From positions 62,001 through 126,000 of the forward strand of contig NZ_MUXT01000009.1 in assembly GCF_002014965.1 (NCBI RefSeq): a DNA stretch of 64,000 bases. Direction: 5' to 3'. Positions 7,501 to 26,399 of this stretch are shown piece after piece. Under the pieces are notes generated by a model. It was given only the letters and a program-made list of their open reading frames with translations, was not told the DNA's origin and searched no databases. This DNA is from Moraxella canis (GTDB taxonomy: Bacteria > Pseudomonadota > Gammaproteobacteria > Pseudomonadales > Moraxellaceae). A program made the position numbers and the translations under genes. Positions within the stretch are counted from its first letter, which is position 1; each line of letters begins with the position of its first letter.

Positions 7501-10152
7501 ACGGATAATGTCACCACCACTGTCAATGAGGCTGGCAACATTGCCGCCATCACCAGCGCCATCACCACCAATGACGATGGTGTAGCGAATGCAACCACTC
7601 CGGCATCTTTGGCAACCGCAGGTGACATTGCCACAGCGATTAACAAATCAGGCTTTAACATCGTCGGTGCTGGTAATAATGCGGGTGATGCTTTTGCCAA
7701 CGAGCTGATCAACCCAGGCGATACGGTGACTTTACAAGCAGGTAAAAACCTGACTGTGGCTCAAACCAATGGGCAGTTTGTCTTTGCAACAGCCAATGAG
7801 GTTGAGTTTGACCAAGTTGCGGTTGGTCCTTTGGTGATCAATAAAGACACAGGCATCAATGCAGGCAACACAGTCATCTCTAACGTTGCCGCAGGCAAAG
7901 AAGGCACAGATGCGGTGAACGTCAGTCAGCTGAGCAAAGCACAAGCTGCGGCGACCACCAAGGTAGAAGCTGGCAGCAATATTGTAGTCAAGACTCACAA
8001 GAATGCTGATGGCAGTACAAAATACACAGTTTCAACTGCTGACAATCTTACCGTGGATAGCATTACAGCTGGTGATACTGTCATGAATAAAGACGGCGTC
8101 AAAGTGGGTGATAAGGTCGCTTTAACTAATACCGGTCTGAAAGTCGGTGATGTATCAGTGTCTAGCACAGGTATTAATGCTGGCGGCAACAAGGTTACTG
8201 GCGTTGCTAAGGGCGATATTACACAAAATAGTACTGATGCGGTTAATGGTAGTCAGCTTTACGCAGTTCAGCAAGTAGCTAATGCTGCCAAAACGGAGAT
8301 TAAAGCAGGTGAAAACATTACCGTTCATAGCTCAACAGGTCAAAATAATCAAACTATTTATACCGTTAATGCTAAAGATACTTCTGCAAGCGTTACTGCT
8401 GGATCGGATGCTGTTACGGTGACCAAGTCTGCTTCTGCTAGAGTTGGTACTGCTGATGTCACTGATTATAAAGTCGACCTATCTCAAGCGACCAAAAACG
8501 ACATTGCCAAAGGGGTTGAAGCCAAAAATATCGTAGATAATAAAGGCTTAACCTTCAATGGTGATAGTGGTACTACTGGTATTAAGAAGCTTGGTGATAG
8601 TGTAGCGATTAAGGGTGATGATAATATTACCACGAAGGCAGATGCTAACGGTCTACAAGTGACATTAAATAAAGAGGTTGCAGTTGATACTGTCACTACC
8701 GGCAATACGGTAATCGGTAGCTCTGGTATCACCATTAAATCACCAACCCAAGATAATCCAAACAACACGGTTGCACTGACTCAATCGGGTCTAAACAATG
8801 GTGGTCAACGCATCACGAACGTTGCCCCAGGAGTGGATGCAACTGATGCGGTCAATGTCAATCAACTCAATGAAATTAAAAAAATTGTTACAGGTGGTAA
8901 TGCTGGCACAAACATAACCACTCAGCAAGCTATCACAGGCACTGCACCCCCAGGTATTGTCATTACTACTGTTACAAACCCTGATGGCTCAACCACTACC
9001 ACCACAGAAACCAACCAAACCGTTGTGGTGTCAACAGATAAAGGGGGTAAAGATTACTATCTCACCACCTATAATGTTGAGGGGCAAAATACCTACGTTA
9101 CCAATGATGTCATCCAAGCGATTGGTAAGATGAACGAGCAAGGCATTAAGTTCTTCCATACAAATGATGGCGAGGTAAAACCTGCTATTCAAGGAAGTAA
9201 TAATGTGGATTCTAGTGCATCAGGTAAATTTGCCACAGCGGTGGGCTATCAAACTGTTGCTGATGGCGATAATGCAGTGGCAATGGGTAACACTTATGTG
9301 TCTGATAAAAAGATAGAAGGGGCACAAGTTACCAAAATTGTAGATGGTAACGGCAAGAAACGATATGCCCAAGTTACCAAAGCAACGGGTAATAATGCGA
9401 TCGCCCTTGGAACAGGTTCGCAGGCATTGGCGGAAAACACAATCGCTATTGGTACAGGTAATGTGGTTACTGGTAAAAACTCAGGTGCCATCGGCGATCC
9501 AAGTATCGTAACTGGCAATAATAGCTACTCTTTGGGCAACAACAACACCGTTATCGCACATGATGCCTTTGTAGTTGGTAATGAAGTCAAGCAAACTTTG
9601 GCAAATTCGGTTGTTTTAGGTAGTCAATCTGCAGCTGTTGAAGTGAATACCGCTACCAAAAAACAAGGCACTTATACTTATGCGGGGATTAACGATGCTA
9701 ATGTATCAGGTGTTGAAGACGTTGTGGGTGTGGTGAGTGTTGGTGCAGAAGGTCAAACTCGCCAAATTCAAAACGTGGCGGCAGGTGTTGTTTCTGCCAA
9801 TAGTACAGATGCAATCAATGGCAGTCAGTTATATGACACTCATCAAGCCATCGGTCAGCTTGCCAACCAAACAGTGAGCTTGGGCAATCAGCTAAACAAC
9901 CGCATTAATGATGTGGCAGATGATGCCAATGCAGGTGTGTCATCAGCGATGGCAATGGCGGCCTTACCACAAGCCTATATCCCAGGTAAGTCGATGCTCA
10001 CAGGCGGTATCGCAAGTTATAATGGCGAAGGCGCTGTGGCTGTTGGTCTATCTAAGCTGTCTGATAATGGTCGCTGGGTGCTTAAGGTCTCTGGTACTGC
10101 CGATACTCAAGGTAATGCTGGTGGCGCAGTGGGCGCAGGCTTCCATTTCTAA
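4522..10152 (+). CDS. Trimeric autotransporter adhesin (YadA/Hag-like)
   Basis: Giant surface adhesin of the type Vc secretion family, 1876 residues. Residues 1-~71 form an extended ESPR signal peptide (MNKLYRVIYNRSTQTFQAV) ending in a hydrophobic stretch and an AVAA-type cleavage site. Residues ~110-430 are a YadA-like head with many AIAIG repeats. The stalk (~450-1740) alternates neck motifs of DAVN-SQL and DAINGSQLY type with coiled-coil/beta segments and large near-identical repeats. A second small head with AIALG/TIAIG repeats lies at about 1560-1660. The last ~95 residues are the YadA anchor, with a neck coil then strands ending GAVGAGFHF; the terminal Phe is typical. The function is predicted to be host or surface adhesion. 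It most resembles the large Moraxella Hag/MID class but the exact orthologue cannot be decided. The partner lipoprotein follows directly. Confidence 0.95.
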   Translation: MNKLYRVIYNRSTQTFQAVCEYARAQGKGSQTAVGSEGSSDHIESVQGAYGLLKFSLIMSGIILSSHAVAATGNQHPITNKNANYCYYDTNTKSVVCGDTTTQTQGQNTIAIGTGAKATTDNAIAIGTGASATSTHAIAIGTGASATSTHAIAIGNKATTSYAGTVVIGDGATVNRPGPGHWAMDNSVVIGRNATVFTGKGSTGNGADGPAMGGATAVGHDAETSYSGSVALGAAKAKAINSIAIGAQSGRHPTEPGHPYGFFGATTEADGSLALGNGAHVKTSASIGAQALGRGAIAQGRGAQSYGQNAQVYGNSSIAIGGASDPSTGGVIPRGGAAQVGAEKNMANNAIAIGISEVGGGAHYSVSVGSHNTISGTLSSVMGNNNHVTSANTYVLGSGINTTGTGNQLTRLGNTVANSVYLGDDSTVTAGRGSVNDQGQGTLFNAIKDSNQVGATTTAGATGVVNNATVNGQVYGNFAGATAVGGVSVGASGSERRIQNVAAGEISSTSTDAINGSQLYATNAKLGNVANTVVNNFGGNADLNPDGSIAYTNIGNTGKDTIHDAIQAATTVVKAGTNVVVDKATNGETGQTEYTVNAWDTTVSAAPDSVVRVTPTIDDNNRTRAYEVTVNTDSNTIKVENGQLTANTTSLNNVNGAVDTPANTDALATAGDIATAINKSGFNIVGAGNNAGDAFANELINPGDTVTLQAGKNLTVAQTNGQFVFATANEVEFDQVAVGPLVINKDTGINAGNTVISNVAAGKEGTDAVNFSQLTKAQNAATTKVAGDQGVRIENTKNDDGSTTYTIAAKTDNVTTTVNEAGNIAAITSAITTNDDGVAEAANGDALVTAQTVSTAINQSGFKLAAGGVEGSELIRAGETATFNAGDNLTVSREGGTITYQTKKDVTFNNVQLGDNGPTISSNAGNLTLANTEGTPVKITGLAEGTDANDAVNFSQLTKAQNAATTKVAGDQGVRIENTKNDDGSTTYTIAAKTDNVTTTVNEAGNIAAITSAITTNDDGVANATTPASLATAGDIATAINKSGFNIVGAGNNAGDAFANELINPGDTVTLQAGKNLTVAQTNGQFVFATANEVEFDQVAVGPLVINKDTGINAGNTVISNVAAGKEGTDAVNVSQLSKAQAAATTKVEAGSNIVVKTHKNADGSTKYTVSTADNLTVDSITAGDTVMNKDGVKVGDKVALTNTGLKVGDVSVSSTGINAGGNKVTGVAKGDITQNSTDAVNGSQLYAVQQVANAAKTEIKAGENITVHSSTGQNNQTIYTVNAKDTSASVTAGSDAVTVTKSASARVGTADVTDYKVDLSQATKNDIAKGVEAKNIVDNKGLTFNGDSGTTGIKKLGDSVAIKGDDNITTKADANGLQVTLNKEVAVDTVTTGNTVIGSSGITIKSPTQDNPNNTVALTQSGLNNGGQRITNVAPGVDATDAVNVNQLNEIKKIVTGGNAGTNITTQQAITGTAPPGIVITTVTNPDGSTTTTTETNQTVVVSTDKGGKDYYLTTYNVEGQNTYVTNDVIQAIGKMNEQGIKFFHTNDGEVKPAIQGSNNVDSSASGKFATAVGYQTVADGDNAVAMGNTYVSDKKIEGAQVTKIVDGNGKKRYAQVTKATGNNAIALGTGSQALAENTIAIGTGNVVTGKNSGAIGDPSIVTGNNSYSLGNNNTVIAHDAFVVGNEVKQTLANSVVLGSQSAAVEVNTATKKQGTYTYAGINDANVSGVEDVVGVVSVGAEGQTRQIQNVAAGVVSANSTDAINGSQLYDTHQAIGQLANQTVSLGNQLNNRINDVADDANAGVSSAMAMAALPQAYIPGKSMLTGGIASYNGEGAVAVGLSKLSDNGRWVLKVSGTADTQGNAGGAVGAGFHF
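4888..4986 (+). repeat. 42-bp tandem repeat in the adhesin head
   Basis: Two identical 42-bp units (4888-4929, 4930-4971) plus a partial third encode the 14-residue unit AIAIGTGASATSTH. The unit is a multiple of 3, so copy changes keep the frame and change only head length. Confidence 0.85.
6521..6831 (+). repeat. Adhesin stalk repeat A, copy 1 (311 bp)
   Basis: Identical over its full length to 7610-7920 (offset 1089 bp). It encodes the segment from the LATAGDIATAINKSG region to the GTDAVN neck motif. Its last 12 bp overlap repeat B. Confidence 0.93.
6820..7034 (+). repeat. Adhesin stalk repeat B, copy 1 (215 bp)
   Basis: Identical to 7369-7583 (offset 549 bp). It encodes FSQLTKAQNAATTKVAG and the following DGSTTYTIAA strand region. 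Beyond both ends the copies diverge abruptly. Confidence 0.93.
7369..7583 (+). repeat. Adhesin stalk repeat B, copy 2
   Basis: Second exact copy of the 215-bp block at 6820-7034. Confidence 0.93.
7610..7920 (+). repeat. Adhesin stalk repeat A, copy 2
   Basis: Second exact copy of the 311-bp block at 6521-6831. Together the order is A-B-unique-B-A, with all copies in direct orientation. Confidence 0.93.
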
Positions 10153-10233
10153 GAGCTTATTATGTCAGATCCTGTGTGATACTGGGTCTGACATTTTGTC
10201 AAATTTCATTCATTGAGTGATTTAGGATATATT

Positions 10234-11121
10234 ATGAAAAATGTAACTATTGGCGTAGCGGCATTAGCTGTATTAGCACTGACAGGGTGTATGGGTACAA
10301 AGCAGGTAAGCCAAAATATCTCAAATCAGGGTACCATCGCAGCCGAAGATATTTATTTTCCAGCGCTTGATAAAGCATGGCAAAAAGATGGTCAGTTTCC
10401 CAATCGCGAGAATTTGTCTAAAATTCGTCCAGGTATCGCCAAGGACGAGCTGTATCAGCTCATTGGTCGTCCGCATTTTAGCGAAGCGAACCGTGCTAGA
10501 GAATGGGACTATATTTTAAAGTTTTATCAAGCTGATGACAGTGTTAAAGTATGTCAGTATAAAGTTATTTTTGATGAAAGCTTCCGTGGTCAAGAATTTT
10601 ATTGGCTACCAGCCGACTGTGCTCAATATGCGCGTATGCCGACAGCAGGCGGTACTGTGATTGTTAATCAAACAGCGCCTGGAGCGCCGATCTTTAGTGA
10701 GCGGATCAATTTGTCAGCGGATGCGCTATTTAAGTTTGATAAGTATGAGCAAAAAGACATGCTGCCCGCAGGTCGTGCGCGCCTTGATGAGTTGGCAGTT
10801 CAGCTGATCGAATGGGAGCAGCGCGGAGATAGCCGCGTACACTTGGTTGGTCATACCGATCGACTGGGGTCTGACGACTATAATATGACATTGTCTCAAA
10901 GACGCGCCGAGACTGTGCGCCGTTATTTGATTGAACGTGGTGTTAATGCTGCGACCTTGACGGCTGCGGGAGCGGGTAAGCTTCAGCCATTGTCTGAAGT
11001 TCAGTGCAGCAATACTTTACCGCGCCCACAGCTGATTGAGTGCTTGCAGCCCAATCGCCGAGTTGAGGTGAATGTGACTGTTTATGCGCGCACAGCAGAG
11101 GGCGCTGAACAAATTCAGTAA
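10234..11121 (+). CDS. tpgA: Adhesin-associated OmpA-domain lipoprotein (TpgA-like)
   Basis: Predicted outer-membrane or periplasmic lipoprotein, 295 residues. The ATG at 10234 gives MKNVTIGVAALAVLALTGC with lipobox LTGC (Cys19); an upstream in-frame TTG is less likely. Residues ~60-125 form a BamE/SmpA-OmlA-like domain (IRPGIAKDELYQLIGRPHF). Residues ~158-285 form an OmpA/Pal peptidoglycan-binding domain (VHLVGHTDRLGSDDYN, SQRRAETVRRYL, NRRVEVNV), with the Cys pair 258/270 in the typical loop. In Acinetobacter sp. Tol 5, TpgA with this architecture binds both the adhesin AtaA and peptidoglycan. The gene starts 82 bp after the adhesin and ends at a strong terminator, so the two probably form one operon. 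Confidence 0.85.
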   Translation: MKNVTIGVAALAVLALTGCMGTKQVSQNISNQGTIAAEDIYFPALDKAWQKDGQFPNRENLSKIRPGIAKDELYQLIGRPHFSEANRAREWDYILKFYQADDSVKVCQYKVIFDESFRGQEFYWLPADCAQYARMPTAGGTVIVNQTAPGAPIFSERINLSADALFKFDKYEQKDMLPAGRARLDELAVQLIEWEQRGDSRVHLVGHTDRLGSDDYNMTLSQRRAETVRRYLIERGVNAATLTAAGAGKLQPLSEVQCSNTLPRPQLIECLQPNRRVEVNVTVYARTAEGAEQIQ

Positions 11122-11350: not shown

Positions 11351-11566
11351 ATGCCTTCAGTAAAGGTAAAAGAGAACGAACCAGTTGATATCGCGATCCG
11401 TCGTTTTAAGCGTGCTTGTGAAAAAGCAGGCGTTCTAGCAGACGTCCGTAAAAAAGAATTCTTTGAGAAACCAACTCAAGAGCGTAAGCGTAAAAAAGCA
11501 GCTGCTGTTAAACGCTACAAGAAAAAAGTTTATCGTGAGCAAGTGCGTCATCAGCGTAAGTACTAA
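11351..11566 (+). CDS. rpsU: 30S ribosomal protein S21
   Basis: Small basic protein of the 30S subunit near the anti-Shine-Dalgarno region; 71 residues, the usual length. [20 protein letters not shown] is the family N-terminus and the C-terminus is Lys/Arg-rich. RBS GGAG lies 8 bp upstream of the ATG. It is not followed by dnaG-rpoD here (as in enterobacteria) but by a terminator and the convergent min operon. Confidence 0.98.
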
Positions 11567-17876: not shown

Positions 17877-18392
17877 ATGACAGCAAAATCTTTTAAGTCA
17901 GCACGATTTATTTTGCCCATGTGCTTGGGTCTTTGGCTAACTGCCTGCGGCAGCGATGATGCACCAAAAACCTCACCACCTGCTGCCAATGATCAAAGCG
18001 TATCAACAGCAACATCTGAGACTGATGCTACCCAGTCAGATAGTGCCAATACCATGACAAAAACGGAATCGGATATCCAAAGTGAGACCACCGAGTCAGC
18101 ATTGCCGACTGATGCGGCTCAAGATAATCCGGTGGTGACAGAGGCGTCTACTGAGGTAGGCAAGGCTCGCTATGAAAAATCTTGCAAGGTGTGCCACGAT
18201 GCAGGCTTGCTTGATGCGCCTAAATTAACTGCAAAAGCCGAATGGCAAAAGCGTTTAAGTGATAAGGGGCTTGAGACGCTGCAAATCCATTCTGCCAAAG
18301 GATTTAATAAAATGCCGGCGCAAGCTGTGGGAGAAGTGACAGAAGCTGAAGTGTATGCGGCGGTCAGATATATCCTTGATCAAGCTCAATAA
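17877..18392 (+). CDS. Lipoprotein cytochrome c (cytochrome c5-like)
   Basis: Probable membrane-tethered periplasmic electron carrier, 171 residues. The signal ends at LTAC (Cys24). A long Ser/Thr/Asp/Gln-rich linker follows (25-~92). The C-terminal domain (~93-171) is a small class I c-type cytochrome: haem-binding CKVCH (Cys103, Cys106, His107) and a likely axial Met in NKMPAQ (Met146). The GKARYEKSCKVCHDAGLLDAPK spacing is typical of cytochrome c5. RBS GGGAGG lies 4-5 bp upstream. The flexible linker suggests that the domain reaches across the periplasm. Confidence 0.88.
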   Translation: MTAKSFKSARFILPMCLGLWLTACGSDDAPKTSPPAANDQSVSTATSETDATQSDSANTMTKTESDIQSETTESALPTDAAQDNPVVTEASTEVGKARYEKSCKVCHDAGLLDAPKLTAKAEWQKRLSDKGLETLQIHSAKGFNKMPAQAVGEVTEAEVYAAVRYILDQAQ

Positions 18393-18436: not shown

Positions 18437-18453
18437 TGGTCGGAATGATAGGA
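18437..18453. repeat. attL: 17-bp core repeat
   Basis: TGGTCGGAATGATAGGA, identical to 26323-26339. It is the displaced original 3' end of the tRNA-Pro gene (reverse complement TCCTATCATTCCGACCA). Confidence 0.9.
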
Positions 18454-18498
18454 ATAAAACAATTTTTATAACTCATTGAAAATAAATGATTAAAATAA

Positions 18499-18540
18499 GA
18501 TACCAAATAGCCGATACCAACAATGATACCAACAAATTAA
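18499..18540 (+). repeat. Left integrase arm-type sites
   Basis: GATACCAA motifs at 18499, 18513 and 18525. The segment 18513-18540 is a 28-bp exact match to 26189-26216 at the other end. This fits arm-binding sites for the integrase N-terminal domain. Confidence 0.7.
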
Positions 18541-18726
18541 AAAGTCACCCCTAAAAATCGCCATTTTTTCCCCTTTTTTACCTTTTCTTGATACTGCCCA
18601 AAACTTTTAATTTCGCGGTCGTAAAAATTTTTTTAAGGAGGCGGTGCTACAAGGCAATCTTTCTGAACTTTTTACCCACCCCATGCGCTCAGCTCACCAC
18701 ATCCCAAAGTAACCAACCTTATCCCA
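18541..18726. other. Non-coding left end of the element
   Basis: Pyrimidine-rich stretch, then a T-rich segment ending in an SD-like TAAGGAGG (18632-18640 area) followed by a GTG-initiated 22-codon frame whose start is too close to the SD to be convincing. No gene is called. A packaging (cos) site is conceivable but cannot be recognised. Confidence 0.4.
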
Positions 18727-18927
18727 TCATTTGCCTTGCTTAATGATTTGATAAATTGCTTGGCAAGATAAATTATATTCCTGTGATAGCTGATGGATAT
18801 TACCATCAGTGTAACACTCTCTGATTTGCTTGCTTTGCTTTGTTATGGCTGACTGGTCTGTCTTTGGGATATACCAAAGCAAGCCCCCACAGGTGCGCTT
18901 AAATTCACTGATGACGATTAAGGTATA
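18727..18927 (-). pseudogene. Mor-type transcription activator remnant (HTH)
   Basis: An open frame of 67 codons on the minus strand without ATG, GTG or upstream TTG start. It encodes RTCGGLLWYIPKTDQ, then a helix-turn-helix-like half GNIHQLSQEYNLSCQAIYQI ending IIKQGK-stop. This matches the C-terminal DNA-binding half of the Mor/Mor_C activator family (GG..YIPK, LA.EY.LS...IY.II). The N-terminal dimerisation half is absent and a stop sits at 18928-18930. It is either a truncated remnant or a frameshifted gene. It lies 3' of the replication gene near attL. Confidence 0.6.
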
Positions 18928-18931
18928 TCAA

Positions 18932-18971
18932 GTTATAGAAAGGTCATAGAAAAGTCATAGGATGGTTATAA
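18932..18971 (+). repeat. 11-bp iterons GT(T/C)ATAG
   Basis: Four copies at an exact 11-bp period: GTTATAG 18932, GTCATAG 18943, GTCATAG 18954, GTTATAA 18965, the first three linked by GAAAR. One helical turn spacing suggests cooperative protein binding on one DNA face. Confidence 0.65.
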
Positions 18972-19029
18972 GGTTGTTTTATTCTCTTACAATACTGCTC
19001 CGAAAAGTCGTAAGCTGTCGTATTTCCTA

Positions 19030-19143
19030 ATTATTATATATGACTGTAGTTGTATATACATATATGTATTTAAATATCAGCAAACAAATCTATACATTAT
19101 TATATATGACTGTAGTTGTATATACATATATGTATTTAAATAT
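19030..19143 (+). repeat. AT-rich 48-bp direct repeat, 66-bp period
   Basis: 19030-19077 and 19096-19143 are identical. Each copy has the 14-bp palindrome ATACATATATGTAT and is almost wholly A/T. Beside iterons, this resembles a DNA-unwinding element of a replication origin. Confidence 0.8.
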
Positions 19144-19203
19144 GAGTAAATCTATCTTTTTACCAATCGAAATTTAAAAATAAAATAAAAAACAGTGATT
19201 TTG

Positions 19204-19306
19204 GGGAAAGTGGGAAAGTGGCAGGCGATAAGCTTTGGTATATAAGGCTTTGCAAGTTTTCCCCCTATTGGGAAAGTGGGGGAAAGTGGGGAAAACTGGG
19301 GAAAGT
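19204..19306 (+). repeat. Left GGGAAAGT iteron array (candidate ori)
   Basis: GGGAAAGT at 19204 and 19212 (8-bp period). A 50-bp centre follows, containing GGTATATAAGGCTTTGCA and TTTTCCCCC. Copies then lie at 19270, 19280, 19289 (variant GGGAAAACT) and 19299, about 10 bp apart. It lies just 3' of the DUF3987 gene, where phage-inducible islands keep their origin. Confidence 0.75.
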
Positions 19307-19335
19307 ATCAAACCATCCCCAATTTGGCGCATCAG

Positions 19336-21333
19336 CTAAGGCAGTAAGATGGGATTAAAAAACACCGTCTTTGGTTGTCCTTGCACGACGATATAATAAT
19401 GACTTTCCAAGCTGTCGGTGGCGTTCTCCAAGATTTCCTTTTTCCTTAACTTTTTGGGCGTGATGGCGCTTTGCATATCGGCATAAAGTATGTAGCTCAT
19501 TTGATGCTTGGGTATATATTTGTCGGCAAACCATTCAAGCACAGTTTGAGCGTCTGACTTTTCATCATCTTTGCCATAGTTTATAAATTCTCTGACGGAG
19601 TGCCAAACCAGTTTAAATGCACCGTCCAAGTATTGACTACTTAGCTTGGTAGCACCATCATAAAAGGCAAGCAAGGTAGCAATTCGGCTGGCGTTCTCTG
19701 CCATACGGTTTGCCACTTCTTTAGCAGTCTTTAGCTCGCCTAGTATCTTACATTCTATGGATTGCTGAAAATTGGCTAAGTGCTGTTTTGCACCATCAGC
19801 AAAGGGCATATTAAACCGCCCCTTGTCATCAGTGGGTAGCTCGCCATCAGTAAACGGATTATGCCCTGTGGGTAATAAATCCTGCATCAAGTAGCTACAC
19901 CTTGCCCAATAGCCTTTTAATACGCTGTCGGCATATTCATCTTGGCTTAGCCTATCTTTACTGCTCCAATCACGAAAGCCCACTAAGGACGGCTCGGCAG
20001 TGAATAAAAAGCGTGCTAATAATCCTTGTTCTGCCATTAAACGATCTTTCAATACTGGTTCAAGGATTACACGCTGACCACTTAGGCAGAATGTCAATCT
20101 ACAGTCATACGCCACGCCCTTTATGGCGTTTTTGCTATGTATTGAGCGTTTGCGTCTGACCGCTCCGCCACTGTATAGGCTTGTGATATTGCCCATCGCA
20201 CTGCCTGCGGTATCTGATTTCATGGTATGACCACCAAAAAACTTCGCCGCCTCATCGGTTCGCCATACCAAATTATTAAGCTCTCCCATCACAAACCTAT
20301 CTAAAGCTGGCTCAATGGTGGCATCATCTAAGATAAAATCAGGATCGTTAGGCTCTGGATTTTCCATTAGCCATGTTGCACGATCTTTGGGCTTGATGCT
20401 GGCTAATTCTGCTTGCCATTGGTTTAGCTCGTGGCGATATGCTTTTTGAGCATTTTTTATGTGCTGATCGACGGCATGATATGCCAAATCTTGTAGTTTG
20501 GATTTACCGCCTCCGCTTTCGCCTTCGGTTAATAAAAATAAACTACTTGGCTTATAGGTGTTGCCCAATGGTGCATTTACCCTAGATTGTCCGATGGTGG
20601 ATAATACGCCCAAAACTGCCATACCTGCCCATGATAAAGGCGTTTGAGTGTAATACGCCAACATCTTCACCACATCGCTCAAAGGCTCGCCAAACGCTTC
20701 TACAGGATAGGGATTATCATAAGATTTGGCAGGCTCTAGCGGTATGGGCGTTCGCCATTGAATAAGGCTAACGCTCGCCACGCTGAAAAAATCGGCATCA
20801 AGTAAGGCGTTAGGCGTTTGGCTTGGTCTGCTGATCGATGCGTAAATATTGGCATTAACTTTATTGGCTAATTGGTCAATCAGATCATCTTTTTTATCTG
20901 CTGTACAATACACTTTCATTGGTTGGTAGTGACCAAAGGCGATCGCCAATAAGGGTAATTTGTCGGCAAATTTATCAGGCAAGGCGATGATGCAAGGATT
21001 TTCACCCTGCATCAGAATATGGCGATAGATGATCTCGCCATCGTCCACGCCTGCGATAACATGGTAGCTGGTAGCAGAATGTAGATCGCCAATGATGACG
21101 GCATGATTATCCCAAGCGCTCAAAGTATGATGATAAGCACGATCATAAATAAACGCATTGGCAAGCCTGCCTTTGGCATCGTGCATCAGCAGGCAGGGCG
21201 TTTGGTTGTACAATCTACCGTTTAGCTCGGCATTGATAACACGCCATTTGTCGCCTTTGTAGGTCTCTAGTGGGATGGCATCAGGTGGCAGGCGTGACAA
21301 ATCATTCAATAGTGCATAAATATCAATTTTCAT
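19336..21333 (-). CDS. DUF3987/YfjI-family replication ATPase (primase-helicase-like)
   Basis: Probable replication initiator of the element, 665 residues. Residues ~1-165 form a mixed alpha/beta domain (AIAFGHYQPMKVYCTADKKD is toprim-like, weak). Residues ~210-560 are the DUF3987 P-loop domain. Walker A is GESGGGKS (271-278), preceded by LFLLTE. A Walker-B-like VWRTDEAAKFFGG (Asp360-Glu361) and the family segments SGGAVRRKRSIHSKNA and LSGQRVILEPVLKDRLMAEQGLLARFLF follow. The C-terminus (~585-665) may be a small DNA-binding domain. Its ATG overlaps the previous stop (ATGA). Such proteins occur in prophages, P4-like satellites and islands; helicase/primase activity is inferred from context. 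Confidence 0.8.
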   Translation of the reverse strand: MKIDIYALLNDLSRLPPDAIPLETYKGDKWRVINAELNGRLYNQTPCLLMHDAKGRLANAFIYDRAYHHTLSAWDNHAVIIGDLHSATSYHVIAGVDDGEIIYRHILMQGENPCIIALPDKFADKLPLLAIAFGHYQPMKVYCTADKKDDLIDQLANKVNANIYASISRPSQTPNALLDADFFSVASVSLIQWRTPIPLEPAKSYDNPYPVEAFGEPLSDVVKMLAYYTQTPLSWAGMAVLGVLSTIGQSRVNAPLGNTYKPSSLFLLTEGESGGGKSKLQDLAYHAVDQHIKNAQKAYRHELNQWQAELASIKPKDRATWLMENPEPNDPDFILDDATIEPALDRFVMGELNNLVWRTDEAAKFFGGHTMKSDTAGSAMGNITSLYSGGAVRRKRSIHSKNAIKGVAYDCRLTFCLSGQRVILEPVLKDRLMAEQGLLARFLFTAEPSLVGFRDWSSKDRLSQDEYADSVLKGYWARCSYLMQDLLPTGHNPFTDGELPTDDKGRFNMPFADGAKQHLANFQQSIECKILGELKTAKEVANRMAENASRIATLLAFYDGATKLSSQYLDGAFKLVWHSVREFINYGKDDEKSDAQTVLEWFADKYIPKHQMSYILYADMQSAITPKKLRKKEILENATDSLESHYYIVVQGQPKTVFFNPILLP

Positions 21334-21533
21334 TCATCACCCCAAGTATCAAGATACCCTTTGAGTCTTAAAATGTCATGGTGCGGATAATCTATTTGTA
21401 ATTGCTCGGCAAAGACTTGGGCATCTGATTTGTCATCAAACATTCGATAAATGCCTAACGCTTGGCACTCAATCCCATAATTTACTTGTGGGGCGATTTG
21501 TTCTTGGCTGTTTAGCTCGTGATATTTTTTCAT
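21330..21533 (-). CDS. Hypothetical small protein of the replication block
   Basis: 67 residues, no family recognised. It is acidic, with two aromatic-rich segments (YGIECQALGIYRMFDD, IDYPHHDILRLKGYLD), no signal peptide and no membrane segment. It overlaps both neighbours by 4 nt (ATGA), so it is translated as part of the coupled block leading into the DUF3987 gene. That position is the main support for it being real. Confidence 0.6.
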   Translation of the reverse strand: MKKYHELNSQEQIAPQVNYGIECQALGIYRMFDDKSDAQVFAEQLQIDYPHHDILRLKGYLDTWGDE

Positions 21534-21760
21534 CTGAACGCCCCTTTTGAATATTCATCATCTAGCACCTTGTAGCCATCATTTAGATATTGGCAAGCAG
21601 TTTCTAGCTCTTTCCACATAACAAAAGTTAGCGATCTGATGCGCTCTATTTCTTGGGGATCGGTTTCACGCAAAATGCCAAAGATATTATTTAAATCTTC
21701 CATGATGATTTTTGCACCTTCAATGTTGGATAGTGCGCTGATTAATTTATCTTGTTTCAT
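21530..21760 (-). CDS. Hypothetical helical protein of the replication block
   Basis: 76 residues from the ATG at 21760 (MKQDKLISALSNIEGAKIIM), preceded by GGGGGTG as SD; an upstream in-frame Cys-rich extension is ignored. It is predicted to be all-helical (ALSNIEGAKIIMEDLNNIFGIL, SLTFVMWKELETACQYL). The general look is of small phage proteins with a DUF3077-like helical pair, but I cannot assign it. ATGA overlaps at both ends show translational coupling. Confidence 0.6.
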   Translation of the reverse strand: MKQDKLISALSNIEGAKIIMEDLNNIFGILRETDPQEIERIRSLTFVMWKELETACQYLNDGYKVLDDEYSKGAFR

Positions 21761-22233
21761 AGCGCACCCCCTGCAATAGCAAGCACAATCACAATGGCAG
21801 TACAAATAAAGCCAATGATAGAAAACGCCATGACAACGCCAATGGCAAAAGATTGGGCGGGGGATAATCTGGCAAGGGTAAATAGTAGATGGTTCATGCG
21901 TGGGTTTCCTGTTAATTTAGTTGGTATGGTCGCTAGAGTAGGGCGACGGCTCTCAACTACCGTTAACAGACGGCGGAACTTATTTCCCAAAAAGGGTATT
22001 GTATTAGGTTCTCTCAAGCCGTCATAACTGGTGATACTGTCCGTATCTTGTAATGACGATATATTTACACCTGTGGGGCTGTTATCGCTAACAGTAGGCG
22101 CAAAAATAGCCAAAGGATGACGGCTTGGCTGTACCGCTGTTAATTTAGTAGTGCGGTTATTTTGCCCTAGCCTGCCTATGAGTGCAAGTGATGAAAATTC
22201 ATGATATTGTCTTTGTTGTTTAATTTTGGTCAT
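21757..22233 (-). CDS. Hypothetical protein with C-terminal membrane helix, first gene of the coupled block
   Basis: 158 residues, function unknown. The first ~115 residues are low in complexity and Pro/Ser/Thr/Arg-rich (LTAVQPSRHPLAIFAPT, FRRLLTVVESRRPTL). The last ~35 form one membrane helix (FAIGVVMAFSIIGFICTAIVIVLAIAGGAL). AAGGA lies 9 bp upstream and its TGA overlaps the next ATG. The DNA contains several short inverted repeats (such as CTGTTA/TAACAG at 22080-22095), so an RNA function for part of this stretch is a real alternative. Confidence 0.45.
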   Translation of the reverse strand: MTKIKQQRQYHEFSSLALIGRLGQNNRTTKLTAVQPSRHPLAIFAPTVSDNSPTGVNISSLQDTDSITSYDGLREPNTIPFLGNKFRRLLTVVESRRPTLATIPTKLTGNPRMNHLLFTLARLSPAQSFAIGVVMAFSIIGFICTAIVIVLAIAGGAL

Positions 22234-22241
22234 GTTATAAT
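22213..22241 (+). promoter_or_regulatory. Plus-strand promoter inside the element
   Basis: -35 TTGTTG (22213-22218), exactly 17-bp spacer, -10 TATAAT (22236-22241), which also has an extended TG. It points against all genes of the element and lies over the start of the 21757-22233 gene. Confidence 0.6.
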
Positions 22242-22247
22242 GTCCTT

Positions 22248-22297
22248 GCTAGTAAGTTTTGCCCTGTCATCTGATGATGGGGCATTTTTTATGGCGT
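22248..22297 (+). ncRNA. Predicted ~50-nt antisense RNA
   Basis: From the promoter above, transcription would begin near 22248 and end at an intrinsic terminator. The terminator is a 12-bp hairpin (arms 22265-22276 and about 22278-22289, two wobble pairs) followed by T6. The RNA is complementary to the mRNA leader just upstream of the RBS of the coupled replication block. It fits an antisense copy-control RNA. Exact ends are estimates. Confidence 0.5.
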
Positions 22298-22364
22298 ATT
22301 GGACGATTTGGGCGGAATGTCTTAGCGGTGTTCCCAATCTGTTCCCAATCTGTTCCCAAACCGT

Positions 22365-22625
22365 TCATACTGATTTAACCCCATTCACGCCCATTTGATC
22401 TTTAAGGCTGGTGATGGCGATATAGTCACGATCTAGCCAATATTGAGCGCATCGCTTGCCATTGGGTAGCTCGATCAGTTTGGATTGAATTGGCTTGCCA
22501 TGCGTGTTTTTAAGCTCGTACACCCTAGCCGCTAACGAAAAACACCCAAACCGCTCTAAAGCCTCAAGTGGTGTTATCGTATTGCCTGCCATCAAATAAT
22601 CTAGGATTTGTTGGTTTTGGGTCAT
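22365..22625 (-). CDS. Winged-helix/HTH protein
   Basis: 86 residues from the ATG at 22625, overlapping the alpA stop by 4 nt (ATGA). MTQNQQILDYLMAGNTITPLEALERFGCFSLAARVYELK matches the small phage and island helix-turn-helix family in which TPLEAL...G...L.ARI.EL forms the recognition unit. The rest (PIQSKLIELPNGKRCAQYWL) is the wing. It probably binds DNA and may regulate the element together with AlpA. Confidence 0.75.
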   Translation of the reverse strand: MTQNQQILDYLMAGNTITPLEALERFGCFSLAARVYELKNTHGKPIQSKLIELPNGKRCAQYWLDRDYIAITSLKDQMGVNGVKSV

Positions 22626-22831
22626 TGGTTTTGCTCCCATGCGATCGGATCAGCAAGCCAAGCATGAATATCTTGGTTTCGCCAAGCGGTGCAATTTGTA
22701 CCAAATCTGATAGGTTGGGGAAACTCGCCACTTTTCACTTTTCGCCAAAGGGTAGATTTGCCAAAAGGTAAAAGCGGTAAAATGTCTTTAGCTCGGCTCA
22801 TGCCTTGAGCAGGTAGTGTAGGTTCTGTCAT
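22622..22831 (-). CDS. alpA: AlpA-family transcriptional regulator/excisionase-like
   Basis: 69 residues from the ATG at 22831 (GGGAG 7 bp upstream). It is a MerR-type HTH of the AlpA family: ILPLLPFGKSTLWRKVKSGEFPQPIRFG, then TAWRNQDIHAWL. In P4-like elements and phage-inducible islands, AlpA homologues activate int/excision or the satellite operon. Its place at the head of the replication operon fits a master-regulator role (inference). Confidence 0.88.
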   Translation of the reverse strand: MTEPTLPAQGMSRAKDILPLLPFGKSTLWRKVKSGEFPQPIRFGTNCTAWRNQDIHAWLADPIAWEQNQ

Positions 22832-22921
22832 GGTCTTACTCCCAAGGTGGTTAAAACTCTCCGCTATGCTGTCATGCGGTGCTTGGGTGTATGATAAGAG
22901 TTTGATAGCCACCCTAGGTAA

Positions 22922-22947
22922 GTGGGGTAAGCCAAAAAATACCCCAC
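22922..22947. promoter_or_regulatory. Inverted repeat upstream of alpA
   Basis: GTGGGGTA (22922-22929) and TACCCCAC (22940-22947), perfect 8-bp arms with a 10-bp loop, flanked by GGTA-rich sequence (GGGTAGGTAGGGTA at 22950-22963). Candidate operator for AlpA or an attenuator. Confidence 0.4.
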
Positions 22948-22991
22948 CTTGGGTAGGTAGGGTATATATAAATCAATTACTTACATAATGA

Positions 22992-23852
22992 CTATTGTTT
23001 AATTTCTTTAATGCGTTTTTTGCCAAAATCTTTTAATGGCGTGGCAATTTCTCTAATTCTGCTTTGCATCATCTGATAGCCATCATCATTTTTATGGTAA
23101 TTGGTGTTCTTGCTAATCCATTGATTGGCTAAGTTGGTATGGCTATCATCTTTTGGCTTGCCATTGGCATAAATATCAAGCCACAATCGCACGGCATGGG
23201 CAAGGTCGGGGGCGTGATATTCGTGTGCTGTATCTAACAGTAAATCAAATGCAGGCGTGGCATTGGCTTGTTGGTTGAGTTCGCTCTCAAGTTCTGCAAT
23301 GCGTGCTTGCAGGCGTGCATTGTCTGCCTGCAGGTCTGCTATCTGCTGTTGGCTGTCATCGTTTGCGGTCGTGGTGTTTTGCTGTCTTTGTAGGTCTAAA
23401 ATGCGTGTTTGTAAGCCTGCTATTATCTCACCTGCATTCATGGGGCTGTTGCTGTCATTCACGCCTGCCATGCTTGGTGATTGTTCCCCAAATGTCGGTA
23501 ATTCTGTTTTTTTCAAATAGTCGGTATAGGTTGGGTTGCTTGTTGTATCATGTTCAAGTTCATAAACATTCAATTCACCAGTAAAGCTATCAATGTAGCT
23601 TTGTAGCGTGTCCAAAGCGCTTTCAAATATCGTGCGTTCATCGTACACGCCTAGCCCTGTTTTGCTTTTAGGTGTGTAAATCGCTTTTCCATCTCTGCGA
23701 TAAACGGTTAAATCCTTATAGGTAGTTTGCAAATGTGCAGTCACCGCTTGTATATCGCTATCATGCGATATTGCCAATTCATTCACCCATTGCCAAACTG
23801 GTATATATTCACCATCTTTTTGTTTGATTAGTTCATCAAAAAATCCCATCAT
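22992..23852 (-). CDS. Hypothetical protein with central coiled coil
   Basis: 286 residues, no function assigned. The N-terminal ~90 residues are folded (MGFFDELIKQKDGEYIPVWQWVNELAIS, LTVYRRDGKAIYTPK). Residues ~145-200 form a coiled coil (IAGLQTRILDLQRQQ, IADLQADNARLQARIAELE). The C-terminal ~85 residues (AHAVRLWLDIYANGKPK, NYHKNDDGYQMMQSRIREIATP) resemble a domain seen in hypothetical proteins of phages and islands. Two consecutive ATGs start it after AAGGTG. It stands between vapBC and alpA. Confidence 0.6.
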   Translation of the reverse strand: MMGFFDELIKQKDGEYIPVWQWVNELAISHDSDIQAVTAHLQTTYKDLTVYRRDGKAIYTPKSKTGLGVYDERTIFESALDTLQSYIDSFTGELNVYELEHDTTSNPTYTDYLKKTELPTFGEQSPSMAGVNDSNSPMNAGEIIAGLQTRILDLQRQQNTTTANDDSQQQIADLQADNARLQARIAELESELNQQANATPAFDLLLDTAHEYHAPDLAHAVRLWLDIYANGKPKDDSHTNLANQWISKNTNYHKNDDGYQMMQSRIREIATPLKDFGKKRIKEIKQ

Positions 23853-23886
23853 GCACCTTATTAAATCAGCACCTTTAAAAATAAGA

Positions 23887-23950
23887 TAGCAGGCGTGGCG
23901 GTCTAAGGTGCAAAAATAACCGCTGTTCGGTAGCTACTCCTAGCCTGCTA
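23887..23950 (-). promoter_or_regulatory. Nested inverted repeats upstream of the coiled-coil gene
   Basis: TAGCAGGC (23887-23894) pairs with GCCTGCTA (23943-23950), and an inner GCGGT pairs with ACCGC. In the leader RNA this could fold into a long stem with internal loops. The role is unknown. Confidence 0.35.
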
Positions 23951-23994
23951 AAACTGTTTTATGGTTTTTATCCATTAATTTAGATAAGCCTTAA

Positions 23995-24372
23995 TCACGC
24001 CTGCGCCCAATTCTCCAAGCTCACCCCATACCGCTCAAAATCTTTGGTATTGTTGGTGACTAGGGTTAATTGATGGGCTTTGGCATGGCAAGCGATCAGC
24101 GTATCAAAACTGGCTTTATGGTTGGCGGTTTGCATATATTCACCAAAACATACGGCAGCTTTTTCATCAAACGGCAACACCTGAAGTAAGCCACGCAAAC
24201 GCTCAAACTCTGCTTTAGGCTCATATTTATCCAAGCCCCTTAATAATTCTGCCCATGTGATCGCACTCATACCAACTTCGCCCACATGACAACTGGCAAA
24301 ACGATCTAGCACGCTTTTTGGCTGGTGTTTTAAAAGATAAATACAAATATTAGTATCAAGCAGATATTTCAC
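23995..24372 (-). CDS. vapC: Type II toxin, PIN-domain ribonuclease VapC
   Basis: Mg2+-dependent endoribonuclease toxin, 125 residues. The acidic PIN residues are visible: Asp6 in YLLDTN, Glu42 in WAELLRGL, Asp90 in FDTLIACHA and Asp111 in TNNTKDF. It starts within the last codons of vapB (4-nt overlap), the usual coupling. VapC enzymes cut tRNAs or rRNA; the target here is unknown. In a mobile element it probably serves maintenance or defence. Confidence 0.93.
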   Translation of the reverse strand: MKYLLDTNICIYLLKHQPKSVLDRFASCHVGEVGMSAITWAELLRGLDKYEPKAEFERLRGLLQVLPFDEKAAVCFGEYMQTANHKASFDTLIACHAKAHQLTLVTNNTKDFERYGVSLENWAQA

Positions 24373-24605
24373 CAGTCACGCTCCACATCATCTAACTCCA
24401 TGCGCTCAAACTCATCACTCATCTTATCGCCCAAGGCTTTAAAAATCTGTGGCACTTCATCTAAGGTGGTGACGGGTCTAATAGTGATCACGCCATTTTC
24501 TTTGCTAAGAATTAATGGGGTATTGGCAGGATAGGCAAACTCTTTGGGCAATCTTACCGCTTGAGAATTGCCCGCCATGATCGGCTTGGTGTGTATGGTT
24601 GGCAT
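24369..24605 (-). CDS. vapB: Antitoxin VapB (AbrB-type)
   Basis: 78 residues. The N-terminal swapped-hairpin AbrB/SpoVT DNA-binding domain (KPIMAGNSQAVRLPKEF) is followed by an acidic C-terminal tail (DKMSDEFERMELDDVERDW) that should wrap VapC. First gene of the pair, with its own consensus promoter. A 10-bp palindrome just downstream of the -10 is a likely autoregulatory operator. Confidence 0.92.
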   Translation of the reverse strand: MPTIHTKPIMAGNSQAVRLPKEFAYPANTPLILSKENGVITIRPVTTLDEVPQIFKALGDKMSDEFERMELDDVERDW

Positions 24606-24630
24606 GATGATCCCCTAAGTCATGATTATT

Positions 24631-24668
24631 TGTAATTACATTATAAGGGCTTTTATCAAGCATAACAA
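24631..24668 (-). promoter_or_regulatory. vapBC promoter and operator
   Basis: Minus strand: -35 TTGTTA (24663-24668), 17-bp spacer, -10 TATAAT (24640-24645). The palindrome TGTAATTACA (24631-24640) covers the start region and is a likely VapBC operator. Confidence 0.7.
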
Positions 24669-24806
24669 GGTTTATCAAAAGGCTAGATCTGCCCAAGCAT
24701 TAGATGGCGTTGTCTAATTTAGATTTTGTCGATCTAAAGCGATCTAGTTCATAAATCAGCCTGTCAAAATGTAGCGGTGTAGCGGATTTTAAAAGGTGCT
24801 GGGCTA

Positions 24807-24910
24807 ACTTTCCCTTACTTTCCCCTACTTTCCCTTACTTTCCTAGCAGGGGGAAAGCTTGAAAAGCATTGGTATTAAAGGCTTTGCATGGGTTACTTTC
24901 CCACTTTCCC
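24807..24910 (-). repeat. Right GGGAAAGT iteron array, mirror image of the left array
   Basis: Read on plus: ACTTTCCC at 24807, 24817, 24827 and ACTTTCC at 24837 (10-bp period). A 51-bp centre contains GGTATTAAAGGCTTTGCA and GGGGGAAAG. ACTTTCCC then follows at 24895 and 24903 (8-bp period). The layout equals the left array reversed, while the GGTAT..AAGGCTTTGCA centre keeps the same plus-strand orientation. It fills most of the 331-bp vapB-int gap. Confidence 0.75.
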
Positions 24911-24936
24911 CATTTTCTAGGTTTTTATATTTATTT

Positions 24937-26157
24937 TTATGGCGATATTGCCTTGATCAGTGTTTCGATAGCGCCAATTTCCCCATCTACCAAATCGGCA
25001 TAATCTTGGATCATTTGCGCACGGTAGGGAATGTGTTTGGCGTGGTCATATGCTTGCGTTGTTGCGTTGCCTTTTTGGTGTGCAAGCTGTAGCTCAATCG
25101 CCTCATGTAGATATTGGCGTTCGTGTAGCGTGGTACTTGCCAATCCTCTAAAGCCGTGACCAGTCATTTTACCTTGCCAATTTAGACGCTTTAGCGCACT
25201 TGTTAAGACTGCTTCGCTGATCGGTGTTTTTGATACTGGATTGTAAAATACATATTCATCATTTAGCTCCATTGCCTTGATGGTCTGTAAAATCTGTATG
25301 ACTTGATCGGATAATGGGATAATGTGCGGTTTGCGCATTTTCATCCTCTCGGCAGGCACTCGCCAAAATTTGGCATCCCAATCTATTTCCTGCCATGTCA
25401 TAAAACGCATTTCTTTTGTGCGAACAAAGGTATAACAGATAAAGCGAAAGGCAAGCTTGGTAAGTGGTGTAATGTTGCTTTGCTCAATGTCGGCAAATAA
25501 GGCTTTTAGCTCGCTAAACTCAATGCGTGCAAAATGTTCTTTATGCTGTTTGCCGAGCTGTTTTTCTAATCCTGTATGTGGTGATATGCCTGTAAACTGG
25601 CTGTTATGCTGGGCGTGCTGATAGATCGATCCAATTTGGCGTATTGCTCGCCTTGCCATGTCATGACTGCCACGGCTTGCAATATTTTTGGCGATATTGA
25701 GAATGTCGGCAGGCGTGACGGCTTTTATATCAATATGTGCGATCTTTGGGGCTATGTCGTTAATATACGATCTATAATCTCTATTGTATGTGCCAATGGT
25801 GACGGTGTGCCTGCCTGCATTGGCTGGATTGTTCGGATCTCGTTTAGCGTGATAGTCATTAGCCACATCACCAAATAGCACCGCTGATGGCTTGGTGTGC
25901 TTTGGATCAATGCCTTGTTTGATTTTCTCTTTGATGGTTAGGGCGTGCAAGCGTGCCTGTTGTAGGCTGATACTTGGATATGTGCCAATGGTCATGCTTT
26001 GCTGTTTACCATGCCATCGGTAGGCAATCACCCAAGACTTAACGCCTGTATGTCTTACCCAAAGTTGTAAGCCGTTTCCATCCGTGTATTTATCTACTTT
26101 GCCATGTGTGCATTTGTTAGATGGCTTAAGTTTCTTTATTTGGGTATCGGTAAGCAT
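24937..26157 (-). CDS. int: Tyrosine recombinase/integrase (P4-type, DUF4102 N-terminus)
   Basis: Site-specific integrase of the element, 406 residues. The N-terminal DUF4102 arm-binding domain (MLTDTQIKKLKPSNKCTHGK, GLQLWVRHTGVKSWVIAYRW) is followed by the core-binding domain (~95-190). The catalytic domain has Arg246 (FVRTKEM), Lys276, His334 and Arg337 (GHGFRG), His360 (LAHQKG) and the nucleophile Tyr370 (TTQAYDH). All active-site residues are present, so it looks functional. The ATG at 26157 has AAGGGG upstream. It lies next to attR and the arm sites, as in other tRNA-targeting elements. Confidence 0.95.
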   Translation of the reverse strand: MLTDTQIKKLKPSNKCTHGKVDKYTDGNGLQLWVRHTGVKSWVIAYRWHGKQQSMTIGTYPSISLQQARLHALTIKEKIKQGIDPKHTKPSAVLFGDVANDYHAKRDPNNPANAGRHTVTIGTYNRDYRSYINDIAPKIAHIDIKAVTPADILNIAKNIASRGSHDMARRAIRQIGSIYQHAQHNSQFTGISPHTGLEKQLGKQHKEHFARIEFSELKALFADIEQSNITPLTKLAFRFICYTFVRTKEMRFMTWQEIDWDAKFWRVPAERMKMRKPHIIPLSDQVIQILQTIKAMELNDEYVFYNPVSKTPISEAVLTSALKRLNWQGKMTGHGFRGLASTTLHERQYLHEAIELQLAHQKGNATTQAYDHAKHIPYRAQMIQDYADLVDGEIGAIETLIKAISP

Positions 26158-26170
26158 TTTTTTACCCCTT

Positions 26171-26216
26171 GTTGGTATCGGTTTTTATGATACCAACAAT
26201 GATACCAACAAATTAA
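26171..26216 (+). repeat. Right integrase arm-type sites
   Basis: GTTGGTATC (26171-26179, inverted) and GATACCAAC at 26189 and 26201. The 28 bp 26189-26216 match 18513-18540 exactly. Confidence 0.7.
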
Positions 26217-26274
26217 TTGGATTTAAAGGGATTGAGTGCTACCACATAGGACAAGAAAAAAGACTTAAAGCATT

Positions 26275-26310
26275 GAAAATAAAAGGGTGTCGCACTGAAA
26301 TGGACACCCT
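26275..26310 (-). terminator. Terminator after tRNA-Pro, carried by the element
   Basis: AGGGTGTC/GACACCCT stem (26284-26291, 26303-26310). On the minus strand it is followed by TTTTATTTTC. It replaces the original tRNA terminator now left at 18401-18433. Confidence 0.65.
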
Positions 26311-26322
26311 GAAATTAATGTT

Positions 26323-26339
26323 TGGTCGGAATGATAGGA
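26323..26339. repeat. attR: 17-bp core repeat inside tRNA-Pro
   Basis: TGGTCGGAATGATAGGA, identical to 18437-18453. It covers the 3' side of the T stem, the acceptor strand and ACCA of the tRNA. Confidence 0.9.
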
Positions 26340-26399
26340 TTTGAACCTACGACCCCTTGCACCCCATGCAAGTGCGCTACCAAGCTGCGCTACATTCCG
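26323..26399 (-). tRNA. tRNA-Pro(GGG)
   Basis: 77 nt including the encoded CCA. Acceptor CGGAATG/CATTCCG, D arm with GCGC stem, anticodon stem CTTGC/GCAAG enclosing ATGGGGT (anticodon GGG), T loop TTCAAAT, discriminator A. The gene is intact; its 3' end is supplied by the integrated element. Confidence 0.96.

Follow-up and report, generated by a model that had tools for sequence, protein, structure and literature searches.

What kind of mobile element occupies the tRNA-Pro(GGG) gene of Moraxella canis, and does it depend on phages for its spread? The question is raised by a compact element at positions 18437–26339 of a 64,000-nucleotide (nt) stretch of contig NZ_MUXT01000009.1 (the window, as this whole stretch is called below). 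Protein and phage matches likewise pointed to the genus Moraxella. A preliminary description had presented it as a satellite or mini-island, possibly undescribed, and the present analysis supported this proposal, adding a cos-like segment in common with a phage group, two RNAs and paired iterons. The element is most probably a minimal cos-type phage satellite, which would silence itself by means of a small RNA of the sRNA-Xcc1 family.

The 7,886 bp of the element are bounded by an exact 17-bp direct repeat, TGGTCGGAATGATAGGA, at 18437–18453 and 26323–26339, present on the plus strand of the 64 kb at these two end positions only. The repeat corresponds to positions 61–77 of tRNA-Pro(GGG), an intact target gene according to ARAGORN (26323–26399, minus strand), whose 3' 17 bp form the attL core, while the exact copy at 18437–18453, placed by repeat search and empty sites, represents the attR core. 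Another exact repeat of 28 bp lies inside both ends (26189–26216 and 18513–18540), likely marking the arm sites of the integrase. A coincidental repeat pair, the objection raised in the preliminary description, was countered by empty sites in genomes G001 and G005 (genomes and loci of the comparison carry G and L numbers), where a homologue of the left-flank gene (17877–18392 of the window) and an intact tRNA-Pro lie 0.2–0.3 kb apart and element-free, so that the pair is not due to chance. The remaining 17 of the 19 full-length homologue loci scanned (L036–L052) had no tRNA in the available stretch and, therefore, the neighbourhood is kept only in G001 and G005.

Every open reading frame (ORF) attributed to the element is read from the minus strand. 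The tyrosine integrase (24937–26157; 406 aa), identified by Pfam, a PHROG-type profile match and motif positions, has arm-binding and catalytic domains in Pfam, and its active-site residues (R246, H334/R337, H360 and Y370) were placed by their position in what we take to be the catalytic motif. The AlpA regulator/excisionase (22622–22912; Pfam 29.5 bits, phrog_66), a 665-aa DUF3987 helicase-like protein (19336–21333; Pfam 145.9 bits), a MazE-type VapB antitoxin (24369–24605) and a PIN-domain VapC toxin (23995–24372) all scored above the Pfam cut-offs. No virion, lysis or terminase family was found at E ≤ 0.001 among the 10 element proteins in Pfam and PHROG. In all these respects (exact end repeats, intact tRNA, complete integrase active site, the AlpA, DUF3987 and VapBC assignments, single-strand layout and missing virion and terminase genes) the earlier reading of the locus held. 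Specific-site integration together with an own integrase, a general mark of satellites, and the integrase plus AlpA combination used for P4-like satellites were both found in the element.

The cos-like segment and the Moraxella phages

A blastn comparison of the whole element with 50,697 phage records produced matches in 426 of them; the best 20 were all Moraxella phages, 19 matching at the distal end of the element and one (Mcat24) at 24809–24937. The distal stretch of 86–121 bp, a putative cos region by homology (18562–18682, minus strand; best part 18597–18682), was 80–90% identical to the phage sequences, and with 18562–18690 as the query 22 records were recovered, all from Moraxella phages (Mcat10 to Mcat32; 80–90%, E down to 6e-24). 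The gene context was examined closely in two of these 22: in Mcat13 the match occupies the whole gap that separates an HNH gene from that of the Terminase_4 small subunit (terS), with terL and portal following, and in Mcat11 tblastn revealed the same order of HNH, segment and terS. This gap is presumably the cos position, as we assume from HK97-like phages. Searching 57 relatives with the segment gave 7 places in 5 genomes: in six prophage-type places (L156–L161) it was flanked by HNH and terS, with terL beyond in five of the six, and the seventh (L162) was the satellite-type contig G016:C6.

The distal end of L069, a member of a tRNA-Arg lineage, matched Mcat1 in its HNH–terS gap and Mcat2–6 in similar stretches (6 records, 73–74%; flanking genes checked in Mcat1). 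Mcat1–6 would represent clade 1, whose terminases differ from those of clades 2–4 (PMC4619438). In a reciprocal search of ten HNH–terS gaps against 22 sequences with a cut-off of E < 1e-5, matches were obtained in the window, where they were confined to 18597–18682 of the 64 kb, and in L069, L070, L071, L072, L076 and L077, while shuffled gaps gave 3 matches at E ≤ 0.01 over 20 rounds. Twelve of the 22 sequences carry DUF3987 (the window, L066, L069–L073, L076, L077, L079, L081 and L145; three shorter DUF3987 loci, L029, L032 and L033, were outside this set), and seven of these 12 have the cos-like segment. None of the seven contained HNH, terS or terL of the Mcat13 or Mcat1 type by tblastn, and the terS queries from both phages found no match in the window, terS being, next to capsid or interference genes such as ppi or rpp, a mark of Gram-negative phage-inducible islands (PICI). 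Taken together, the segment appears, on strong grounds of homology, to derive from the same source as the presumed helper cos region, and it suggests a tie between the element and this group of Moraxella phages.

The same data bear on the alternative that the element is an integrative island that replicates by itself and is stabilised by VapBC, and that no longer relies on a phage or has never used one, its cos-like segment having been carried over from an old prophage recombination. This is unlikely: it would agree with the lack of any capsid, terminase or size-redirecting gene, with the possible degeneration of a Mor-like ORF and with the decay of a sister locus at tRNA-Val in G001 (L078; integrase residues 1–145 only, VapBC 95–96% identical), but the segment coincides with the HNH–terS gap and has no detectable pieces of either gene, and two segment types matching two phage groups recur in 7 of the 12 related sequences.

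Several further observations concern the packaging region. The contig L070, of satellite type, carries two cos-like segments, each of a different phage group (194–276 and 523–585), of which one is 83% identical to a prophage-type gap of the same genome (G016:C58). The sole tblastn match for the HNH, terS and terL queries was a terS in L081 (3738–4163; 47% to that of Mcat13), an element of another family with a terS of its own. Next to the cos-like segment of the window, a 51-aa ORF with a TTG start (18727–18882, a stop-to-stop frame) corresponds to the C-terminal half of a Mor/late-activator helix-turn-helix (HTH) protein (Pfam Mor 38.2 bits, phrog_532); it is possibly degenerate, and may be a helper-derived remnant or a switch. 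A Pseudomonadales-1 RNA (RF03046) is located shortly beyond the terS/cos region in Mcat25 (L166:25235–25395) and Mcat22 (L168:24444–24604).

sRNA-Xcc1 and its loop code

The candidate immunity RNA, sRNA-Xcc1 (RF02221; 21937–22023, apical hairpin 21960–21972), is located between alpA and the DUF3987 gene and reached the gathering cut-off of its family (53.3 against 53 bits). Its 3' hairpin exposes a variable 8-nt loop, TCTGTTAA in the window, complementary to two copies of TTAACAG: seqA at 22137–22143, 120 nt upstream and just ahead of a terminator-like hairpin with a T-run (22100–22126), and seqC at 21909–21915, 21 nt downstream and fused to the Shine-Dalgarno sequence of the next gene. This gene, an ORF of 46 aa that is hydrophobic in its C-terminal half (21757–21897; Shine-Dalgarno overlapping seqC), had no match in the family searches and sits where we assume kil to be in P4; as it is the first gene after the RNA, a 158-aa ORF called in this region is probably the leader plus the 46-aa gene. 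Complementarity of the loop to sites both upstream and downstream, on what would be a single transcript, is the hallmark of the P4 CI and C4 RNAs, and because its layout is that of P4 CI and P1 C4 RNA, sRNA-Xcc1 probably functions as an immunity RNA of the antisense type.

The loop code was followed in two samples. In the first, of 33 RNAs, the window was joined by 32 of 42 places in relatives; the loop rule identified a loop in 25 of these RNAs, and removal of 3 near-duplicates left 22 with 20 distinct loops. Both sites matched over at least 6 nt in 17 of the 22 and over at least 7 nt in 14, as against means of 1.25 and 0.81, respectively, and a maximum of 5 in 2000 rounds with permuted loops. 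The second sample, from a class-wide search at E ≤ 1e-8, contained 19 RNAs from 10 of 369 genomes, and with a somewhat wider loop rule 9 of them matched at both sites (permuted mean 0.62, maximum 5). In 28 of 30 rows, a count with near-duplicates included and no background figure, four or more consecutive T were present 23–31 nt after the upstream site, and an ORF began 26–50 nt after the RNA in 46 of 52 cases under a rule favouring starts behind a Shine-Dalgarno sequence. The Pfam families of the 46 next genes included SymE (6), KilA-N (4), AntA (3), Phage_pRha (3), Bro-N (3) and P22_AR_N (2), in a count that left out L095, L129, L133, L139 and L140 and may include a gene twice. The self-silencing code is thus strongly indicated by the pairing statistics; the mechanism by which it would act we infer from the layout.

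Among the 96 relatives, sRNA-Xcc1 was detected in 21 at E ≤ 0.001, in 15 of them above the cut-off. The latter score was reached in L066, L070 and L072, with L071 (52.8 bits) and L075 (50.8 bits) close by, and L069 has three copies, one above the cut-off. These three form tandem modules with different loops at 9339–10378 of this tRNA-Arg satellite; an island of Xylella with five copies is on record (PMC12189769). In prophage-type places of G014, G030 and G005, the RNA lies on the same contig as the cos-like segment at distances of about 1.6, 10 and 19 kb, respectively; the candidate helpers Mcat1, Mcat22 and Mcat25 gave no match at the gathering score. The RNA was also found immediately upstream of SymE toxin genes in L126, L128, L136, L137, L141 and L144, with a two-site match in four of the six, which suggests that it might act there as an RNA antitoxin. 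A genome-contig scan with SymE recovered 7 Thiosymbion/Thiobius loci and none from Xanthomonas, and the samples are thus free of Xanthomonas RNAs.

Silencing of the helper terS by the satellite RNA was entertained and rejected: the satellite target word recurs within the terS ribosome-binding site of Mcat25 and Mcat22, but by duplex energy terS ranked only 8th of 51 Mcat25 start regions and the window RNA only 3rd of 33 probes against terS, so the agreement was regarded as coincidence. The second RNA of the element, an int-alpA-like RNA (RF02996; 23872–23950), remained below the family cut-off despite its place between int and alpA (28.4 against 35.8 bits, E 0.0033); its outer stem is largely intact, and a similar match occurs at L066:7778–7858 (28.1 bits).

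A satellite that has decayed and is immobile today is still less likely than the phage-independent island. The source genome gives no direct sign of movement, and G001 holds a remnant with a truncated integrase (L078), but the 17-bp and 28-bp end repeats are exact, integrase, AlpA and DUF3987 are full-length, the RNA is above its cut-off with both sites matching, and a DUF3987 protein cluster of 98% identity (P0001) occurs on two contigs. The least likely of the alternatives is that sRNA-Xcc1 regulates host (virulence) genes in trans, as proposed for Xanthomonas and Xylella, and that the loop matches stem from repeated sequence: this is the published view of the family (PMC12444791, PMC12189769), but the loop and both sites co-vary from element to element, shuffling of loops among loci abolishes the matches, and the RNAs often precede antirepressors, SymE or a replication operon.

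Replication module, cargo and relatives

An iteron-like cluster of GGGAAAGT(G) with a spacing of about 10 bp (19203–19312) follows the DUF3987 gene and is repeated in inverted orientation, ACTTTCCC, near int (24807–24916); P4 ori and crr iterons are, as we assume, the analogue of such a putative replication pair. Inverted pairs of 8-mer clusters were present in 5 of the 22 sequences (the window, L069, L071, L076 and L077) and in 0 of 200 shuffles of the window element; the other 17 had no such pair, one of the two regions being absent from many of these sequences. One cluster follows DUF3987, and the second is near int in all these except L071, where it lies at 16.4 kb, away from the sole integrase match. 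The integrase-side iteron region (24809–24937) resembles 11428–11557 of Mcat24 (74%, E 5e-9), within the tail-gene region of that phage, and two AT-rich tandem copies of 62 nt, 92% identical, lie beside the iterons at 19030–19157. An AlphaFold2 model of the DUF3987 protein built from a 67-row alignment (predicted local distance difference test 81.9, predicted template modelling score 0.63) had MCM chains as its best Foldseek matches (E 2.4e-6), a hint that the protein may be an AAA+ helicase of the broad MCM-like kind.

The remaining genes are small or of cargo type. Between VapBC and alpA, a 286-aa coiled-coil protein (22992–23852) has a C-terminal part common to other elements. Its matches to scaffold (Pfam E 0.011), adsorption (0.0089), spanin (0.012/0.015) and tail fibre (0.21) families carry no weight, nor do an integrase–tail (0.18) and a DUF3987–terminase match (0.35). 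The same ORF gave the only PADLOC match at E ≤ 0.01, a weak one to HEC-07 (E 0.0052), and defence cargo was otherwise not detected by this search. A winged-helix HTH_39 protein of 91 aa (22365–22640; Pfam 39.2 bits) is followed, upstream of the leader, by three 11-bp direct repeats, TGTTCCCAATC (22329–22366), a possible operator of the leader promoter. Ahead of DUF3987 are a 91-aa ORF (21530–21805) with one weak relative, in L068, and a 67-aa ORF (21330–21533) kept in some relatives. Outside the element, a 1876-aa ORF (4522–10152) resembles, by eye, a trimeric autotransporter adhesin.

At a threshold of E ≤ 1e-60, 18 of 96 genomes had relatives of the integrase, with a tRNA (Pro, Val, Arg, Met or Ser) near the integrase at 17 of the 21 loci; DUF3987 relatives (E ≤ 1e-15) occurred in 9 of 57 genomes. 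The gene order int-(cargo)-alpA-HTH_39-leader-small ORFs-DUF3987 was recognised, whole or in part, in L066, L069, L074, L075, L076 and L077, with the cargo slot after int occupied by VapBC in the window and by a TacA/acetyltransferase pair in L069, which also has a CHC2 zinc-finger gene ahead of DUF3987. End repeats were identified in 5 of 16 tRNA-linked loci (the window, L069, L076, L077 and L081), those of L069, L076 and L077 being 16 bp long at tRNA-Arg and enclosing 11.5–12.7 kb. Kinship with plasmids was rejected, as the best 20 of 167 matching records cover the tRNA only. Among viral contigs, the integrase had no match and the DUF3987 profile found one locus, L145, with no cos match at E ≤ 0.01 and a 25-nt partial match in a separate comparison; a first genome-contig scan with DUF3987 gave no match.

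Proposed functioning and comparison with known systems

The minimal cos-type satellite proposed here would function as follows. In the quiet state, one leader transcript would start upstream of seqA; the loop of the processed sRNA-Xcc1 would pair with seqA, favouring termination at the adjoining hairpin, and with seqC, covering the Shine-Dalgarno sequence of the first gene, and thereby keep off the replication operon (the 46-aa ORF, two small ORFs and DUF3987). An incoming element with the identical code would be silenced as well. Upon the action of a helper phage, AlpA and the integrase would excise the element, DUF3987 would open the iteron origin, and the HNH-terminase of the helper would recognise the common cos and fill helper heads with the DNA of the element, probably in concatemeric form: five units of 7,886 bp make 39.4 kb, against 40.4 and 41.3 kb in the records of Mcat22 and Mcat25, respectively. 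Anatomy and packaging-site homology argue strongly for the satellite status; mobility, helper identity and concatemer size we infer from the same features.

A number of findings weigh against this interpretation. The cos-like segment had no match at E < 1e-5 in 5 of the 12 DUF3987 sequences (L066, L073, L079, L081 and L145), and the terms 'cos site' and 'cohesive' do not occur in the available text of PMC4619438. End repeats were not found in the available stretch of 11 of the 16 tRNA-linked loci, and no sRNA-Xcc1 was listed in L073, a DUF3987 carrier. Ten of the 19 RNAs of the second sample showed no two-site match, and 8 of the 33 in the first (L086, L105, L088, L090, L106, L107, L102 and L112) had no 8-nt loop under the rule; a looser rule, which chose wrong hairpins in several rows including the window, yielded two-site matches of 6 nt or more in the first six of these (with a doubtful loop in L107) and no two-site match in L102 and L112. 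The MCM match of the DUF3987 model had a template modelling score of about 0.3 and a root-mean-square deviation above 15, for which reason the claim is kept to a broad AAA+ helicase.

The sRNA-Xcc1 family, known since 2010 and later regarded as virulence-linked, would gain a simple function here, a short loop code through which mobile genes silence themselves. If this is correct, mutual exclusion of elements could be predicted from their loop sequences alone. A wider generalisation, put forward only tentatively, would make sRNA-Xcc1 a family of antisense immunity RNAs that serve as barcodes and are common to satellites, helper-type prophages and SymE toxin cassettes; were it true, with each module having a code of its own, an element with tandem modules, such as the three loops of L069, could withstand several rivals, and a satellite with two different cos-like segments, as in L070, could make use of helpers from more than one group. 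For Moraxella, the element represents a candidate helper–satellite system, with the helper group suggested by packaging-site homology; full-text searches gave no paper on P4-like satellites in this genus, and the one paper that mentions both Moraxella and phage satellites names Moraxella bovis for its defence systems only.

Among known RNAs, sRNA-Xcc1 of Xanthomonas belongs to the same Rfam family and was cast as an sRNA for which many host targets are predicted (PMC2996969); the family has been treated as virulence-linked (PMC12444791, PMC12189769) and was recorded upstream of symE in integron cassettes (PMC12444791). The available sRNA-Xcc1 literature held no statement of a self-targeting role, and PMC12189769 was the only one among the matches listed to mention sRNA-Xcc1 alongside C4 antisense, antirepressor or phage P4. 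The C4 RNA of P1/P7 and the C4-like Group 1 sRNAs of Acinetobacter baumannii are likewise small, structured and antirepressor-adjacent, as many sRNA-Xcc1 are; C4 covers the ribosome-binding site of ant (PMC12197685), and the variable part of the Acinetobacter RNAs is the target loop (PMC5320573), so that a variable target loop (7–11 nt there) and pairing over a ribosome-binding site are common features (PMC12197685, PMC5320573). Unlike C4, the element RNA scores with RF02221, the matches listed at E ≤ 1 including none to C4, and precedes a satellite replication operon. The CI RNA of P4 pairs with seqA upstream and seqC downstream, leading to termination (PMC4825925).

The comparison with P4 made in the preliminary description stood for the layout, which the element has in common with P4 (int, alpA, an antisense-type RNA, a replication helicase, paired iterons and cos), and failed for the gene family. 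P4-like elements are defined by psu, delta, epsilon and alpha together with int, alpA and sid (PMC8628076), and membership was rejected, since none of the 10 proteins scanned matched psu, delta, epsilon or alpha in Pfam at E ≤ 1 (sid was outside the search); the element also differs from P4 in having sRNA-Xcc1 in place of CI and a DUF3987 helicase. The phage-inducible chromosomal minimalist islands (PICMI) of Vibrionaceae are small, contain int, alpA and a DUF3987-type 'prim', and have no capsid-remodelling genes; AlpA is their activation switch and packaging of concatemers has been demonstrated (PMC10803314). The element resembles them in the co-location of int, alpA and a DUF3987/DUF5906-type primase, and elements of the present kind may be among the 135 of the PICMI list. 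It differs in its position at tRNA-Pro(GGG) instead of next to fis, a location optional in the broad PICMI model and mandatory in the Vibrionaceae model (PMC10803314), in the cos-like segment of prophage-type phages, as opposed to the headful-type ends and virulent helpers of PICMI, and in the sRNA-Xcc1 leader and paired iterons; in the available text of PMC10803314 'sRNA' is absent and 'small RNA' appears once. PICMI and P4 are thus the closest known systems, yet the element departs from each of them in a defining feature, and by gene content PICMI is the nearer of the two.

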